A DNA stretch of 6,388 nucleotides from a bacterium (GCA_030622125.1 JAUXGM010000129.1:1-6388); one strand, 5' to 3'. Positions 1,576 to 6,386 are shown, counted from the stretch's first letter. Notes: generated by a model not told the origin, from the sequence alone. Program-made: numbers and translations.

Positions 1576-4353
1576 TTATTTATTATATTCCTTTATCAAA
1601 TCCTTGTAATCATTAAGATAGGTGCGGGTGGGTTTTTGTTTTTTCAGTTTATTGGGATACCATTTCTGAATAAATTTCCCCATCTGTGAATAGCGTATAT
1701 TTTCCTCTTTCCTTTGATACATTGATCTTTGAAGGTCAAGAAGCTTTATCACTATTTTTCTTCCTTTTTTTGGAATATCACCGGTTGCTTTCTTCTTCAA
1801 TATCTCTTTTTTAAGATCTTCCATATCCTCTTTAATGTTCTTGGTATCCCCTACCATTTCACCTTTCTCTTTCCCCTTTTCAATCTCCTTTTCAAGTTCT
1901 TCAAGCCCTTTCTTTATCTCTTCCTGATGTTTACCCGCCTGATCAAGTGCCCTTGACAATCGTTTATTTAATTCACTGTTTTTGAGTTGTTCCATTAGTT
2001 TTTCCAAATAGGAATTTAGCTGTGACTGATCTTTTGCAAGTTCATTTAATTTTTGAAAGAGATTCATACTATTTGATGAATTACAACTACAGGAATTCAT
2101 TTGGTCAAGCAATTTTAAAAGCTCATTCATATATTGACTGTAATTGTTTTTAAATATCGTAAAGTATCTACCCTCTTTTTTGATCTGAAACCGTTTGTAA
2201 TTTTCCTTTGCATTTTCAAACTTCTTGTAAAGATTATAATTCATCATTAACAAAATTGCGGCATATTTTTGGATCTCTGTCTCAGCATTTTTCAATTTAC
2301 TGCTAATAAAGCTCTCATCTTCCTTTGCAAATTGAGAAGCAAAATCAATAGAAACGGAATTTTTAACAAGCGGCATAAGATCGGGATTATTATTGTTTTG
2401 TTCGTTTAATTTATTTTTAGAAAACTGTTTGAATTGTTTGGAAAGTTGATTCTTTTTCTGATTGAATTTTGATTGTTGTTTTTCATTTTTCATCTTTTCA
2501 AGATTTAACCTTGCCATATCAGGATCAAGCATTTTCTTATCTTTATCGTCAAACTTCGAGAAAAGTTCATTTGCATCTTTTTTTACATTCTCAAGTTTTT
2601 TTTCTTCACCGAATTTTAATTGGTCAAGTTTTTCAGCGATCTTTTTTGCATCCAATCCTTTTTTATATTCCTCCAATTTTTTTACGATCCGCTCAAGCTC
2701 AAAGGCTATTTTTTTAAGGTCTTCCTGAGATAATTTTTTTTCCGAACTATCATTTTTGTTCATAGATCTCTCAAGTTTACTCTCAAGAAGTTTCATAACA
2801 TTTTCATCTAAAAGTTCTCTTATCAAGTCCATTTGCTTTTTGAATTGTTCTATGATCTTATCCTCAATTTTCAGCTGCTCCATTTCCGCTTTAAGATAAT
2901 CAGCGGTTTTTTTAATTGTTTCGGCATTCTTTTTTATATTTTTCTTGACCGTTCTTTGAAATTTTTCTGTGTTTCCCTCTTTTTGCATTTTTTTAAGAAG
3001 TCTTTCTTTTTCAAGATCATTTGCACCGTTTTTCAATTCCCCGAAAAGATCATTTCCAATATTTTCAAAGATCTCTCTGATATCATTTTTATCAAAAAGC
3101 GATAAAGTAAAATGTTGTGATTCTCCTTTTTCGCCGTATACATCATAAGCTTCAATATAAAAATAAAGTAGTCTATCTGATAATGTTGTGATCTCATCGA
3201 GCCTTATATTATAATTGCTTGTAAAATACTTTTTCCCTAAATGGTTTTTTATTTGTATCTTTTTTTTTGTATTCTGAAGTTCTTTTTCATAAACAAAGTA
3301 AATTTTGTCAATACCTTCCCGGTCGGATATTCTATATTTGATGGGATAATCACCATAAAAACTATCGATTTCTTCATCCTCTTTCGGCTTTAATATCTCT
3401 ACGATAGGTCCGTTATTTTCCATAGATTTTATATATCTTTCGTATTCACCAACAAGATATTTACCATTATAGACCTGTAATTTCATTTTTACATCACTGT
3501 CCAATCTTATAATACCATTAAGCTTATTTAATTTCTTTTTATTACTTTTCAGAAGAAACTGATCATATTTCCCTGATATCTTAAATATATACCTTATCTT
3601 TGTTCCCTTAATAGCACTGTTCGCCTCCAATTTATACCATTTATTATCGCTTTCCTTGTATTCATATCTATCTGCAATTTCAACTGCCTTCAATACTTCA
3701 ACCGACAAGATTTTTTTTGTAGTTCCACATTCCAATGTCAATTTTCCTTCTTTTAGTTTATTTAGTGTGATATAATTGTTATTTACCTTAAAGTTGCCAA
3801 CTTCCTTTCCATTGTTCTTTACATTCAATTTGATAGTATCACTGTATGTTTTAACAAAAAGTTTGGCGGGATTTCTTGTGTATTCATTGTAAATAATTGA
3901 TCTATCTTTCACAAAGAAAAAGGTCTTGCCGGGAATAATGTTGTTTTTTAATACAAGTATTAGAAAGATCATTATAATCTGAATATATAGAGTGCGTATC
4001 AAAATATCTCTAATATGAAGGGGGACTTTTTGTTCTAAAACCGGGTTCTCTATTTTATCAAGTTCATATTTTAAAAGAGCAGTTTCTTTTTTTTTCTTCT
4101 GTCGAATTAAACAAAGATGGTAGAACCTGCTGCCGACCCCTGAATGTTCCTTCATGAATAAAAGGAGTTGTTTCTTTCTTAATAAATATCCCAATATTAG
4201 GAGATAGATAAAGATCGGTGTAAAACTAAAAAATTTTAGCCCGATTATATATAAGATGAGAATGGACGGTAAAAAAAAAAGTCCTTTAACAAGATAATTT
4301 AAAAATAATTTACTTCTGACATACGAAGTAATTTTGTTTATTTTTTTTTCTAT
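1576..4353 (-). CDS. DUF4175-like membrane-anchored coiled-coil protein, probable ATA start
   Basis: The function is unknown. Read from the ATA at 4353, the protein has 925 residues. A hydrophobic hairpin (about 16-37 and 43-58) is followed by a basic loop containing KEHSGVGSRFYHLCL, and then a third membrane helix (about 116-136). A beta-rich region to about 420 and a long Lys/Glu/Gln-rich helical region, probably outside the membrane, follow. Near 754-757 is an SCSC cluster in a Ser/Asn linker, and the tail has LLDLQRSMYQRKE (about 871-883). Hairpin, loop, third helix, Cys/Ser linker and LLDLQRS tail match what I recall of the DUF4175-like proteins of FCB bacteria. No ATG, GTG or TTG precedes the TTG at 4194, which would cut through the second helix. 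The ATA has GAGGA six bases upstream and overlaps the AMMECR1 stop as ATAG. It is the last gene of the visible operon. Family assignment is moderate; the coding call is firm. Confidence 0.6.
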   Translation of the reverse strand: MEKKINKITSYVRSKLFLNYLVKGLFFLPSILILYIIGLKFFSFTPIFIYLLILGYLLRKKQLLLFMKEHSGVGSRFYHLCLIRQKKKKETALLKYELDKIENPVLEQKVPLHIRDILIRTLYIQIIMIFLILVLKNNIIPGKTFFFVKDRSIIYNEYTRNPAKLFVKTYSDTIKLNVKNNGKEVGNFKVNNNYITLNKLKEGKLTLECGTTKKILSVEVLKAVEIADRYEYKESDNKWYKLEANSAIKGTKIRYIFKISGKYDQFLLKSNKKKLNKLNGIIRLDSDVKMKLQVYNGKYLVGEYERYIKSMENNGPIVEILKPKEDEEIDSFYGDYPIKYRISDREGIDKIYFVYEKELQNTKKKIQIKNHLGKKYFTSNYNIRLDEITTLSDRLLYFYIEAYDVYGEKGESQHFTLSLFDKNDIREIFENIGNDLFGELKNGANDLEKERLLKKMQKEGNTEKFQRTVKKNIKKNAETIKKTADYLKAEMEQLKIEDKIIEQFKKQMDLIRELLDENVMKLLESKLERSMNKNDSSEKKLSQEDLKKIAFELERIVKKLEEYKKGLDAKKIAEKLDQLKFGEEKKLENVKKDANELFSKFDDKDKKMLDPDMARLNLEKMKNEKQQSKFNQKKNQLSKQFKQFSKNKLNEQNNNNPDLMPLVKNSVSIDFASQFAKEDESFISSKLKNAETEIQKYAAILLMMNYNLYKKFENAKENYKRFQIKKEGRYFTIFKNNYSQYMNELLKLLDQMNSCSCNSSNSMNLFQKLNELAKDQSQLNSYLEKLMEQLKNSELNKRLSRALDQAGKHQEEIKKGLEELEKEIEKGKEKGEMVGDTKNIKEDMEDLKKEILKKKATGDIPKKGRKIVIKLLDLQRSMYQRKEENIRYSQMGKFIQKWYPNKLKKQKPTRTYLNDYKDLIKEYNK

Positions 4354-4910
4354 TTTAAGTCCTCTTCTGAAAATACAATCGCTTGAAATGTACGAAGTTC
4401 AACATCCTTTTGCTTCCATGCATCCGGCGGAAGCCCAGCCTTTCCATAACAGAGCTCATTTAGAAATGTCTCTTTGTCCCAGCCGGTCTCTGTTGCAACC
4501 TGCGGAAGAAAAACTCCTTGATTCCAGCCTTTTTTGACTATTACACCATCTCTGCCGAGTACAATATCATCAGCAGATTTTACAAGTTCAGGCGGAGTTA
4601 AAACTGATATTTCTATGGTAATTTTGTTAATCTCATTTGATGATACCGATGGAAATCTTGGATCCCTCGTTGAGGATTCAATGGCTGTATCTCTGATCGT
4701 TTCCCATAACGGTTTGTAGGCAATGATAAAACCAATACATCCTCTTAAATTACCCTGTTCCCTTATCGTTGTAAATGCCCCTGCTTTCTGAGAGAATTTT
4801 TCTTTTATCCCTTTCGGAGGATCATATATCTTATGTTCATTAATGTAAAGCTCAATTGTTTTACGGGCAAGACCGAGTAATGCCTTTTTATCCTCAGTTG
4901 TAAGTTTCAT
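4350..4910 (-). CDS. amrA: AMMECR1-domain protein (AmmeMemoRadiSam system protein A)
   Basis: This single-domain AMMECR1 protein of 186 residues is the usual length for bacterial members. The family hallmark LRGCIG is at 55-60. It is followed by DPRFPSV (83-89), GVFLPQVATE (132-141), KAGLPPDAW (157-165) and the final strand FQAIVFSE (175-182), all in the family order. No signal peptide is present, so it should be cytosolic. In bacteria and archaea the domain occurs beside Memo and a radical SAM enzyme; the reaction is not known. Its ATG overlaps the Memo stop codon as ATGA, immediately after a run of A, and lacks a clear Shine-Dalgarno sequence, so translation is probably coupled to Memo. Its 3' end carries the ribosome-binding site of the next gene. 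The symbol is a convention and should be treated lightly. Confidence 0.9.
   Translation of the reverse strand: MKLTTEDKKALLGLARKTIELYINEHKIYDPPKGIKEKFSQKAGAFTTIREQGNLRGCIGFIIAYKPLWETIRDTAIESSTRDPRFPSVSSNEINKITIEISVLTPPELVKSADDIVLGRDGVIVKKGWNQGVFLPQVATETGWDKETFLNELCYGKAGLPPDAWKQKDVELRTFQAIVFSEEDLK
4360..4364 (-). promoter_or_regulatory. Shine-Dalgarno sequence before a probable ATA start
   Basis: On the minus strand GAGGA is followed by six bases (CTTAAA) and then ATA at 4353-4351. The spacing is ideal for a start codon there, and no ATG, GTG or TTG in this frame lies between this site and the TTG at 4194. The site lies within the last codons of the AMMECR1 gene. It supports re-initiation at ATA by ribosomes that have just terminated. 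Confidence 0.45.
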
Positions 4911-5800
4911 TTTTTTTTTAGCTCTTTATAGAAAACAAAGGATCCATAGCCGACAACCCGATCTTCATTAAAAGCAGAACTACCGGAATCACTTAACTTT
5001 AACAATTTTGCTTTGATCGTATCATTTTTTTCGATCATCTTTAAAAAAACAGAGATAGGAAATAGACCACATGCCTCTATTTCTCCACTAAGATTTTTCT
5101 TTAAAAAAAGTTCGCTATTTTTTGACACAACTATATCTGCGAGTTCAGTATCCATTTTATTACAGACCGCACTTGTTTTGTAATGAGAAAGATCGGACGA
5201 GATAACAAAAAGAGAATTATCAATGTACTTCTTTAAATTATTTGCAATTTCGGTTATCATCGTTTTATTTAGCGAACCCACAATAATCGGTACTATCTTC
5301 ATTTTCGGATATTTATAATTAATAAATGGAAGTTCTACCTCTACGGAGTGCTCTTTTTCAAATTCCTTATTCGAGAGTTTTATATAATCTGTTTTTGCAA
5401 GCTCTTCTACAACTTTTTTATCTATCGGTAATCGTCCATTTGGAAGAACATAACAGTCAAATAATGGTACCACAGCTCCGGAAAGCTGATAAAAATGACT
5501 TGGTCCGATAATGAAAATGCGTTCATATTTTGCATAATTATTTGTAGATAGTGCTTTAAAACTGTATCCAGCCGTAGACCCGGAATAGCGATATCCGGCA
5601 TGGGGAGATATTATTCCAACTATTGAACAGTTCGGCAACTCAACCTTTGCACCGTCAATGAACGATTTTATCTCTTTATTTAATACAGTATCTTTTTCGG
5701 GATAGAACACTCCTAATACATTTGGAAGTTTTTCTCTCCTGCTTGAAGAAACACAGGAGAACATTAAAAGTATTAACAGGAAACTAATTACTTTTTTCAT
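4907..5800 (-). CDS. amrB: Memo-family protein with lipoprotein signal (AmmeMemoRadiSam system protein B)
   Basis: This protein belongs to the MEMO1/AmmeB family, which shares a fold with extradiol dioxygenases and binds a metal. Its 297 residues match the family plus a leader. The conserved blocks are PHAGY (66-70, His67), GPSH (99-102, His102), HSVEVELPF (151-159), SSDLSHY (201-207) and CG (244-245, Cys244). His67, His102 and Cys244 correspond to the proposed metal-site residues of human MEMO1. The odd part is the N-terminus: two lysines, a hydrophobic stretch (4-14) and MFSC ending at Cys16, followed by a Ser-rich spacer. This reads as a lipoprotein signal, although Met and Phe at -3 and -2 are weak lipobox residues. 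The start overlaps the upstream gene by 17 bp and has no strong Shine-Dalgarno sequence. The enzymatic role is unknown. The family call is firm; export is likely but unproven. Confidence 0.9.
   Translation of the reverse strand: MKKVISFLLILLMFSCVSSSRREKLPNVLGVFYPEKDTVLNKEIKSFIDGAKVELPNCSIVGIISPHAGYRYSGSTAGYSFKALSTNNYAKYERIFIIGPSHFYQLSGAVVPLFDCYVLPNGRLPIDKKVVEELAKTDYIKLSNKEFEKEHSVEVELPFINYKYPKMKIVPIIVGSLNKTMITEIANNLKKYIDNSLFVISSDLSHYKTSAVCNKMDTELADIVVSKNSELFLKKNLSGEIEACGLFPISVFLKMIEKNDTIKAKLLKLSDSGSSAFNEDRVVGYGSFVFYKELKKK
4910..4919 (-). other. Run of ten A at the Memo/AMMECR1 junction
   Basis: Read on the minus strand, ten consecutive A cover the last lysine codons of Memo and the first base of the AMMECR1 ATG. 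In the zero frame Memo stops at the overlapping TGA. One extra A in the transcript, or a -1 ribosomal slip, would carry Memo directly into the AMMECR1 frame and make a single fused polypeptide. The run is also a likely hotspot for length mutation or sequencing error. Confidence 0.6.
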
Positions 5801-6386
5801 CGCTCATTTTTCTGCCAAGTTCGAAGTAATGTTTCTCCTTTTCAGTGTTGCCAATTTTTTTATAGTAGATATAACACATTCCAATTTCGGTCATTGTATC
5901 TATGTCTTCTTTTTCAATTCCATTTATGATCTTTTCCATCCACCATTTATTTTCTTCAATATTTAGTTTTTTAAATTCATTAACAAGTGAATTAAATTTC
6001 CCTTTCTTATAGAGATGAAACACCTTCAACATATTTATAATATTTGTATCATTTTTATATTGTGAGATAAATTCCTTTTCTCTTTCCGGATCATCTATTT
6101 TTAATATTTGAAGATATTCGATAAGAACTTTTTTTTTCTCTTTGTTTTTTTTCTCTGCTTCCTCTGCGGTTGTAGATTCTTCGGCTGAAGCCTCAGAATG
6201 ACCGAAGGGGGCGTTCTCTGTGGTTACTTCTTCTGGTTTTTCTTCTATTTTCTCTTCTTCTGTTTTTCCTTCTTCACCAACCTCTAACCTCGAACCTCTA
6301 TCTTCTGTTTTTTCTTTACTTCCTACTTCTTCACTTCCTACTTCTTCACTTCCTACTTCTTCACTTCCTACTTCTTCACTAACCTC
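5784..6386 (-). CDS. Partial unknown protein: repeat-rich acidic linker plus helical C-terminal domain
   Basis: I do not recognise this protein. The frame is open from the right edge of the window to a TAG at 5784, giving 200 residues with the N-terminus missing; the ATG at 6032 is internal because the open frame continues 118 codons upstream of it. Visible residues 1-78 are a low-complexity acidic linker: four EEVGS repeats (4-23), an RGSRLEVGEEG stretch (30-40), and a segment around PFGHSEASAEES (60-71) encoded by a palindromic dispersed repeat. From about 79 comes a Lys/Glu-rich helix, then amphipathic helices that look like degenerate TPR units, such as MCYIYYKKIGNTEKEKHYFELGRKM near the end. 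The stop lies 17 bp inside the Memo gene, so the two are translationally coupled. The linker suggests a tether between an unseen N-terminal part, perhaps a membrane anchor, and the helical domain. Confidence 0.75.
   Translation of the reverse strand, partial: EVSEEVGSEEVGSEEVGSEEVGSKEKTEDRGSRLEVGEEGKTEEEKIEEKPEEVTTENAPFGHSEASAEESTTAEEAEKKNKEKKKVLIEYLQILKIDDPEREKEFISQYKNDTNIINMLKVFHLYKKGKFNSLVNEFKKLNIEENKWWMEKIINGIEKEDIDTMTEIGMCYIYYKKIGNTEKEKHYFELGRKMSDEKSN
6174..6213. repeat. REP-like palindromic dispersed repeat inside a coding region
   Basis: The plus strand reads AGATTCTTCGGCTGAAG then CCTCAGAATGACC and a G-rich tail. ATTCT (6176-6180) pairs with AGAAT (6195-6199), and GGCT (6183-6186) pairs with AGCC (6189-6192) around GA, leaving a two-base mismatch, so a stem of nine pairs can form. 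The GATTCTTC...AGAATGAC frame matches a repeat I know from spacers of many Bacteroidota and other genomes, though I could not search. It is much richer in GC than its surroundings and is translated in frame. Confidence 0.6.
6279..6299. repeat. Three tandem AACCTCT/AACCTCG heptamers
   Basis: AACCTCT (6279-6285), AACCTCG (6286-6292) and AACCTCT (6293-6299) run head to tail and are followed by A. A fourth copy, AACCTCT, is at 6381-6387 next to the window edge, so copies flank the 15-bp tandem array. In the coding strand they read as AGAGGTT units encoding part of the acidic linker. Confidence 0.65.
6318..6377. repeat. Four perfect 15-bp tandem repeats encoding EEVGS
   Basis: The unit ACTTCCTACTTCTTC is repeated exactly at 6318-6332, 6333-6347, 6348-6362 and 6363-6377; a fifth copy begins with ACT and then diverges into AACCTCTA. 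On the minus strand each unit encodes Glu-Glu-Val-Gly-Ser in frame. The copies are identical, even at third codon positions, which points to recent expansion or frequent slippage. Because the unit is a multiple of three, copy-number change alters linker length without breaking the frame. Confidence 0.9.

Follow-up and report, generated by a model that had tools for sequence, protein, structure and literature searches.

A probable AUA start codon overlapping the AMMECR1 stop codon in a DUF4175-like membrane protein gene, and candidate non-standard starts elsewhere in the same lineage

Introduction

Where does translation begin in a gene whose open reading frame (ORF) extends far above its first standard start codon? 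The question is raised by a bacterial contig of 6388 bp (C130; GCA_030622125.1 JAUXGM010000129.1:1-6388), hereafter the window, which belongs to a 2.08-Mb assembly (192 contigs, 96% complete) and whose minus strand carries, in the order of transcription, a MEMO1-like gene, an AMMECR1 gene and a large gene for a DUF4175-like membrane protein. We conclude that this last gene (1576..4353, minus strand; 925 codons plus the stop) probably starts at AUA (ATA in the DNA, 4353-4351), and that the codon is probably used by Shine-Dalgarno (SD)-assisted reinitiation after termination of AMMECR1. The initial annotation had offered two possibilities, this ATA or an ATG lost through mutation or assembly error. 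The gene is delimited and identified by its frame, its orthologues, the matches of sister-family proteins to PF13779 and a profile comparison.

The genome set for the phylum comprises seven species, five in the family of the window (genera g1 to g4, the genome of the window representing g1) and two in a sister family; four members of the set are also in public records as metagenome-assembled genomes (MAGs; JAGLWT01, JAGLGN01, JAGGYO01, which is isolate AUK180, and CALMGJ01). A first contig scan returned no relatives, and a second contig search, built on the alignment, returned four, all of them already in the set. The genome of the window itself was surveyed through a 483-kb sample of stretches.

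The junction in the window

The ORF that begins at TTG 4194 (4192..4194, minus strand) encodes 872 residues, and 68 further codons can be read above it before an in-frame TGA within AMMECR1 closes the frame. The sole standard start in that upstream stretch is TTG 4194 itself, residue 54 of the longer reading, and exactly 53 codons separate it from ATA 4353; reading the frame bore out the earlier description of these codons as free of ATG, GTG and TTG. A longer start-less stretch is found only in dnaB among the 341 genes of at least 150 residues in the 483-kb sample. The ATA (4351..4353, minus strand) stands at -4 relative to the TAG stop of AMMECR1 (4350..4352, minus strand), so that the two overlap as ATAG, and the SD-like GAGGA (4360..4364, minus strand) is separated from it by a spacer of 6 nt, all at the positions that had been given. 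Two other four-nucleotide overlaps in the window have the form ATGA (MEMO1/AMMECR1, 4910-4907, and OTC/DTD, 1131-1134), in agreement with the resemblance that had been pointed out. No RNA structure is predicted at the junction (z about 0).

The 3' end of the 16S rRNA is CACCTCCTTA, and the ordinary anti-SD therefore applies. The anti-SD duplex at the ATA amounts to -5.8 kcal/mol in g1, -5.4 in g2 and -7.7 in g3, with a spacer of 6 nt in all three, whereas the other candidate starts in the window never do better than +0.2 kcal/mol and those of g1 and g2 have no SD. A duplex of -5.4 kcal/mol is reached by 57% of the genes of the genome, as against 16% of random internal sites.

Hydrophobicity is high in two stretches of the first 56 residues (19-residue Kyte-Doolittle means up to 2.2). 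An AlphaFold model built from five sequences (mean pLDDT, the predicted local distance difference test, 64) has helices at residues 2-25, 28-36, 45-56 and 116-137, beta strands within 152-418 and long helices thereafter, the helices of the hairpin being modelled with low to moderate confidence. Hydropathy and model agree with the two-helix hydrophobic hairpin that had been noticed above the TTG (residues 2-56; 4186..4350, minus strand). The hairpin had also been called typical for this type of protein, and it is indeed found in every orthologue, including those with an ATG just upstream, as well as in DUF4175 relatives of other phyla. Starting at the TTG would cost the protein helix 1 and almost the whole of helix 2.

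The DUF4175 label stands by homology and not by direct match. The window protein matched nothing in Pfam or NCBIfam, with no hit to PF13779 at E up to 1. Unlike it, the sister-family orthologues exceed the PF13779 cut-off of 27.3 bits (L017 with 37.6, L018 with 33.7), and the profile comparison between the window family and the sister family gave 99.6%. The window protein is a DUF4175 homologue that has diverged too far to match the Pfam model. DUF4175 (PF13779) membrane proteins have an N-terminal hydrophobic hairpin followed by beta-rich and long helical parts, the same arrangement as here. One of them, AdvA of Acinetobacter, is reported to be a critical division protein (PMC7481262); we draw no conclusion from this for the window protein.

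Conservation in related genomes

The DUF4175-like gene is present in all seven species. In g2 (L004, 41% identity) AMMECR1 ends in AAA TAA, and the DUF4175-like frame crosses an ATA at exactly -4 (ATAA) with no standard start between the junction and the hairpin; one ATG lies 23 codons upstream, inside AMMECR1, and is matched by none in g1 and g3. In g3 (L005), where AMMECR1 is fused to MEMO1 and ends in CAA TAG, ATA again stands at -4 (ATAG). The last AMMECR1 codon (AAA in g1, AAA in g2, CAA in g3) and the stop codon vary, while the ATA is constant. Aligning orthologues over the junction, as had been proposed, therefore revealed no ATGA in the sister genera, and the same ATA in the same place supports its being the true start. 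Judged by these alignments, the junction is old and common to three genera of the family.

The residues that follow the ATA are conserved as protein. Between the window and g2, nine of the first 15 residues are identical, four of the nine being encoded by different, synonymous codons, and the similarity over residues 2-15 (p 5e-5) is best in this frame. Between the window and g3, the stretch upstream of the g3 ATG is also similar (p 0.004); the part upstream of the g3 GTG alone gives no similarity signal. Since this conservation is joined by the agreement of three separate assemblies, neither an assembly error nor a start at TTG 4194 fits.

The remaining species have ordinary starts nearby. 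In the two species of g4, AMMECR1 and the DUF4175-like gene are about 390 bp apart, and the latter has an ATG six codons before the residue that aligns with the ATA. The gap from AMMECR1 to the gene is only 6-11 nt in the sister family, whose ATG start matches the ATA in position to within one residue.

Evaluation of alternative explanations

Several observations weigh against an AUA start. A run of 53 hydrophobic codons without a standard start is by itself not very improbable; the weight of the case comes from conservation in the orthologues. The acidic tail of AMMECR1 (EED, encoded in part by the GAGGA) yields a purine run in any case, and the SD-like site is consequently not independent evidence. 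The ATA itself arises automatically whenever a final codon with A in its third position meets a TAA or TAG stop and the offset between the frames stays the same, and an A precedes TAA or TAG in 38-47% of the genes in these genomes. In g3 a GTG and an ATG are available 10-14 codons after the ATA. Furthermore, the residues before the hairpin are only weakly similar between the sister family and the family of the window (p about 0.05), so that the equivalence of the sister-family ATG rests mainly on its distance to the hairpin.

Translation might begin at a different non-standard codon shortly downstream, such as the ATA at codon 5, the ATT at 4332 (codon 8) or a codon adjacent to helix 1 (TTA in the window, CTG in g2, ATG in g3). 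The g3 ATG, 14 codons after the ATA, has a weak SD, and the residue aligned with it is Leu in the window and in g2; in the g4 pair, read from the ATG, constraint sets in at about codon 12, and ATT is a proven start in infC. However, none of these codons has an SD in the window or g2, the preceding residues are conserved between the two, and TTA is implausible as a start; we regard a start at one of these codons as unlikely. Ribosomes might also shift by -1 where AMMECR1 ends and so produce an AMMECR1-DUF4175 fusion with no separate start. This reading is suggested by the frame of the DUF4175-like gene, -1 to AMMECR1, and by the A_AAA_TAR (R, A or G) that precedes the stop in g1 and g2. Yet the A_CAA_TAG of g3 cannot re-pair, no slippery sequence is conserved before the AMMECR1 stop in g1-g3 (AAA-TAG, AAA-TAA, CAA-TAG), the genes are separate with intergenic DNA in g4 and the sister family, and the last codons at other ATAA or ATAG junctions (CTA, GTA, CGA, ACA, AGA) share no slippery motif, all of which makes a frameshift improbable.

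The sense strand of the DUF4175-like gene contains A9 and T10 runs within its first 30 codons (window 4261-4350), which are possible slippage sites. These runs give some substance to the idea that an ATG was recently lost or miscalled in the window assembly, by substitution or homopolymer error, and a patatin-like gene of genome G002, discussed below, illustrates that homopolymer runs disturb frames in these MAGs. Nevertheless, g2 and g3, which come from other projects, have the identical ATA, single-base insertions or deletions (indels) in either run expose no standard start, and the frame is intact over 925 codons; this second possibility of the initial annotation is highly improbable. The TTG at 4194 is what mechanical ORF calling, and hence a gene finder, would return. 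A start there would cut into a hairpin that is kept in all orthologues, those with an ATG start included, and in distant DUF4175 relatives, and the codon has no SD (+2.8 kcal/mol), so that TTG 4194 is an extremely unlikely start.

Proposed mechanism of initiation

The AUA start at 4353 may be used as follows. Ribosomes would finish AMMECR1, stop at the UAG and remain near it while the GAGGA just upstream holds the small subunit; the ribosome would then step back one base and reinitiate on the AUA, two of whose bases also belong to the stop. Despite the third-position mismatch, the AUA would be read by the ordinary initiator tRNA (anticodon CAU), and we infer that the first residue is formyl-methionine and not isoleucine. 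Output of the membrane protein would be low, because AUA is a weak start, and coupled to that of AMMECR1. The initiator tRNA gene of the genome has the ordinary GGG/CCC anticodon stem and CAU, and the elongator Met tRNA and initiation factor 3 (IF3) are likewise ordinary by sequence. Two other accounts were rejected. AUA has not been reassigned to Met, given that internal ATA codons align with Ile 45 times, with Leu 21 times and with Met five times; and a feedback through IF3 as in E. coli is contradicted by the infC of the family, which has an apparent TTG start, and by the ordinary IF3 sequence.

Translational coupling falls steeply with distance in measured gene pairs (PMC10666635). AUA starts in S. 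aureus reach about 10-30% of AUG output (PMC13009471), rsbW of Listeria is functional from ATA (PMC13068326), and for E. coli, ATA is put at no more than 1% of ATG (Hecht 2017, as cited in PMC12864459), whereas an ATG-to-ATA change in E. coli rpoS lowered RpoS only up to five-fold (PMC12864459).

A single step from ATAG to ATG would destroy the AMMECR1 stop in g1 and g3 (TAG to TGG), whereas in g2 one step from ATAA to ATGA would retain it. The ATA may have been retained for its low output, or it may simply be trapped.

Other genes without a standard start codon

The 483-kb sample contains a few more genes in which no standard start fits the N-terminus, and by a rough count about four of the 389 genes sampled (about 1%) appear to start at AUA, AUU or AUC (AUH). 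Orthologues were retrieved for four of these further genes, one query consisting of three proteins joined.

A WecA-like glycosyltransferase gene (PF00953; L097:9209-10084, plus strand, G000 C89; also L152, L151, L141 and L150) shows ATA at the start in all four genera, g1 to g4. In three of these genera the ATA lies at -4 from the stop of an epimerase gene (AAA TAA in g1, CTA TAA in g2, GTA TAA in g4). In g3 and g4 no standard start occurs until deep within the protein, and in g2 a TTG follows five codons after the ATA. By comparison of these loci, the WecA-like gene is an independent second predicted case of an ATA start. A membrane-anchored TPR gene behind accC (L105:12495-13394, minus strand, G000 C47; also L149, L136, L134 and L135) has an ATC, preceded at 5-6 nt by an SD, in three genera (g1, g2 and g3) and an ATA in g4; a second candidate in g1-g3 is an ATA at -4 from the accC stop, so that either ATC or ATA would be used. 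Some single-base indels could supply standard starts for WecA in g3 and for TPR in g1 and g2, which makes these single genomes weaker.

Four further cases come from the window's genome, from g3 and from the sister family. The dnaB gene (L101:4984-6408, minus strand, G000 C176) has an ATC after AAAGGAGGCGGAAG, 6 nt past AAAGGAGG, at a position that fits the ATG of other genomes; 79 of its codons pass without ATG, GTG or TTG, and almost no single indel supplies a standard start. A DUF6754 gene (L026:4983-5783, minus strand, G000 C8) has ATA with AAGGAG seven bases upstream and a signal-peptide-like N-terminus, the ATA being found in the window's genome only and standard starts in the orthologues. 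In an ABC-type ATPase gene of g3 (L162:16169-16972, minus strand, G002 C11) the ATA overlaps the upstream stop as ATAG after AGAGGAG (SD -9.1 kcal/mol); as the first standard start lies 35 codons in, past a conserved SFSYGD, the ATA is the only fitting start. The sister-family infC (L215:422 onwards, plus strand, G005 C252) offers the classical case known from E. coli, an ATT behind a strong SD.

The last upstream codons at the -4 ATA junctions (AAA, AAA, CAA; AAA, CTA, GTA; CGA, ACA, AAA; AGA) code for different residues, yet every one of them has A as its last base, an argument for conservation of the ATA as such. The scan for start-less genes, run on a 300-kb sample of E. coli K-12 (258 genes), found none at an ATAA or ATAG junction. 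Taken together, these cases tentatively suggest a small candidate phylum with relaxed start choice, in which about 1% of genes, some of them essential (dnaB), would begin at AUA, AUC or AUU, and in which ATAA/ATAG reinitiation junctions would be shared between genera by two gene pairs or more (AMMECR1>DUF4175-like and epimerase>WecA-like, perhaps also AccC>TPR); we place this generalization just short of probable.

Two scans add no strong statistics of their own. Across five genomes, all 11 start-less junctions with the -4 phase had A as the base before TAA or TAG (a chance of about 1e-4 from base composition), a figure on which we do not rely, as the cases are non-independent and three look incidental: serS, with a conserved N-terminus further upstream, L215, whose ATT has the better SD, and L223, with an ordinary ATG downstream. 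Moreover, upstream of genes with a poor SD at their standard start, an SD followed by ATA, ATT or ATC is not enriched (10/97, compared with 56/662 for other codons; p 0.33), so that the presence of an SD is no proof and orthologues are required case by case.

The frame of serS (L208, minus strand, plus-strand coordinates about 2968-4224, G001 C140) runs for 76 codons without a standard start and opens inside the conserved N-terminus (KDPKLFTEN); the gene may start elsewhere or contain a frame error. The patatin-like gene (L154, minus strand at 14124, G002 C11) was discarded as a candidate, being off frame from its likely ATG at an A10 run, through slippage or assembly error; the run is the probable reason why it looks start-less.

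Comparison with known systems

Among the genes of S. aureus described with AUA or AUU starts are infC, ccpN, citZ and cvfC1 (PMC13009471). As in the DUF4175-like gene, the AUA start is there backed by an SD, and the non-canonical start of ccpN is common to S. aureus and B. subtilis. The S. aureus genes differ in having extended SDs and experimental proof, whereas the DUF4175-like gene has a moderate SD and a predicted AUA start that overlaps a stop; the text consulted in PMC13009471 describes no such overlap. Listeria monocytogenes has fixed non-canonical starts in infC (ATT) and rnhC (ATC), besides rsbW ATA mutants, the conserved cases amounting to six genes of 2265, or less than 0.3% of core ORFs (PMC13068326). 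Rare ATA, ATT or ATC starts are thus species-wide there, as here, and rsbW overlaps rsbV and yet works from ATA; the corresponding figure in the genome of the window is about four of 389, predicted, with conservation over genera in two or three cases.

Four-nucleotide stop-start overlaps that serve termination-reinitiation are known as ATGA and GTGA (PMC10666635, PMC6728339). Such pairs have the same -4 geometry, co-directional genes and the same proposed reinitiation as the window junction, but they combine an NTG start with a TGA stop, whereas the window junction combines ATA with TAG (g1, g3) or TAA (g2). It would work like an ATGA-type pair without being an ATGA or GTGA pair.

It is already known that AUA, AUU and AUC starts exist elsewhere (infC, ccpN, rnhC) and are rare in each genome. 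By its title, the work of Baudet et al. from 2010, which PMC3564903 cites, reportedly adds non-canonical initiation codons in several genes of Deinococcus deserti. What looks new is the recurrence of AUH starts within this lineage together with the ATAA/ATAG stop-start overlap; for overlaps at -4, a survey of 2.66 million gene pairs (PMC10666635) names ATGA or GTGA and says nothing of ATA. Should the ATAA/ATAG junctions prove real, ATGA and GTGA would not exhaust the four-nucleotide overlaps, and the lineage would offer a natural, genus-spanning system in which to study the strictness of start-codon choice in reinitiating as opposed to freshly starting ribosomes. Gene finders normally accept ATG, GTG and TTG only, and genes with AUH starts are therefore truncated or lost. 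In the genomes considered here, standard calling would lose membrane anchors, a signal peptide and the first part of DnaB and of the ABC ATPase.

Neighboring genes

The AMMECR1 gene (4350..4910, minus strand; PF01871, E 3e-55), whose translation would feed the ATA, is preceded by the MEMO1-like gene (4907..5800, minus strand; PF01875, E 7e-55), the two sharing the ATGA overlap noted above. The MEMO1-like protein has a lipoprotein-like signal (LLMFSC); in g3 (L005) and in the sister family (L017, L018), MEMO1 forms a fusion with AMMECR1 that opens with a signal-like N-terminus. These signal-like N-termini suggest that MEMO1 and AMMECR1 may be exported. A tandem repeat at 6312-6380 of the window (15-bp unit, 4.6 copies, 98% match) lies in an open frame and codes for GSEEV repeats.

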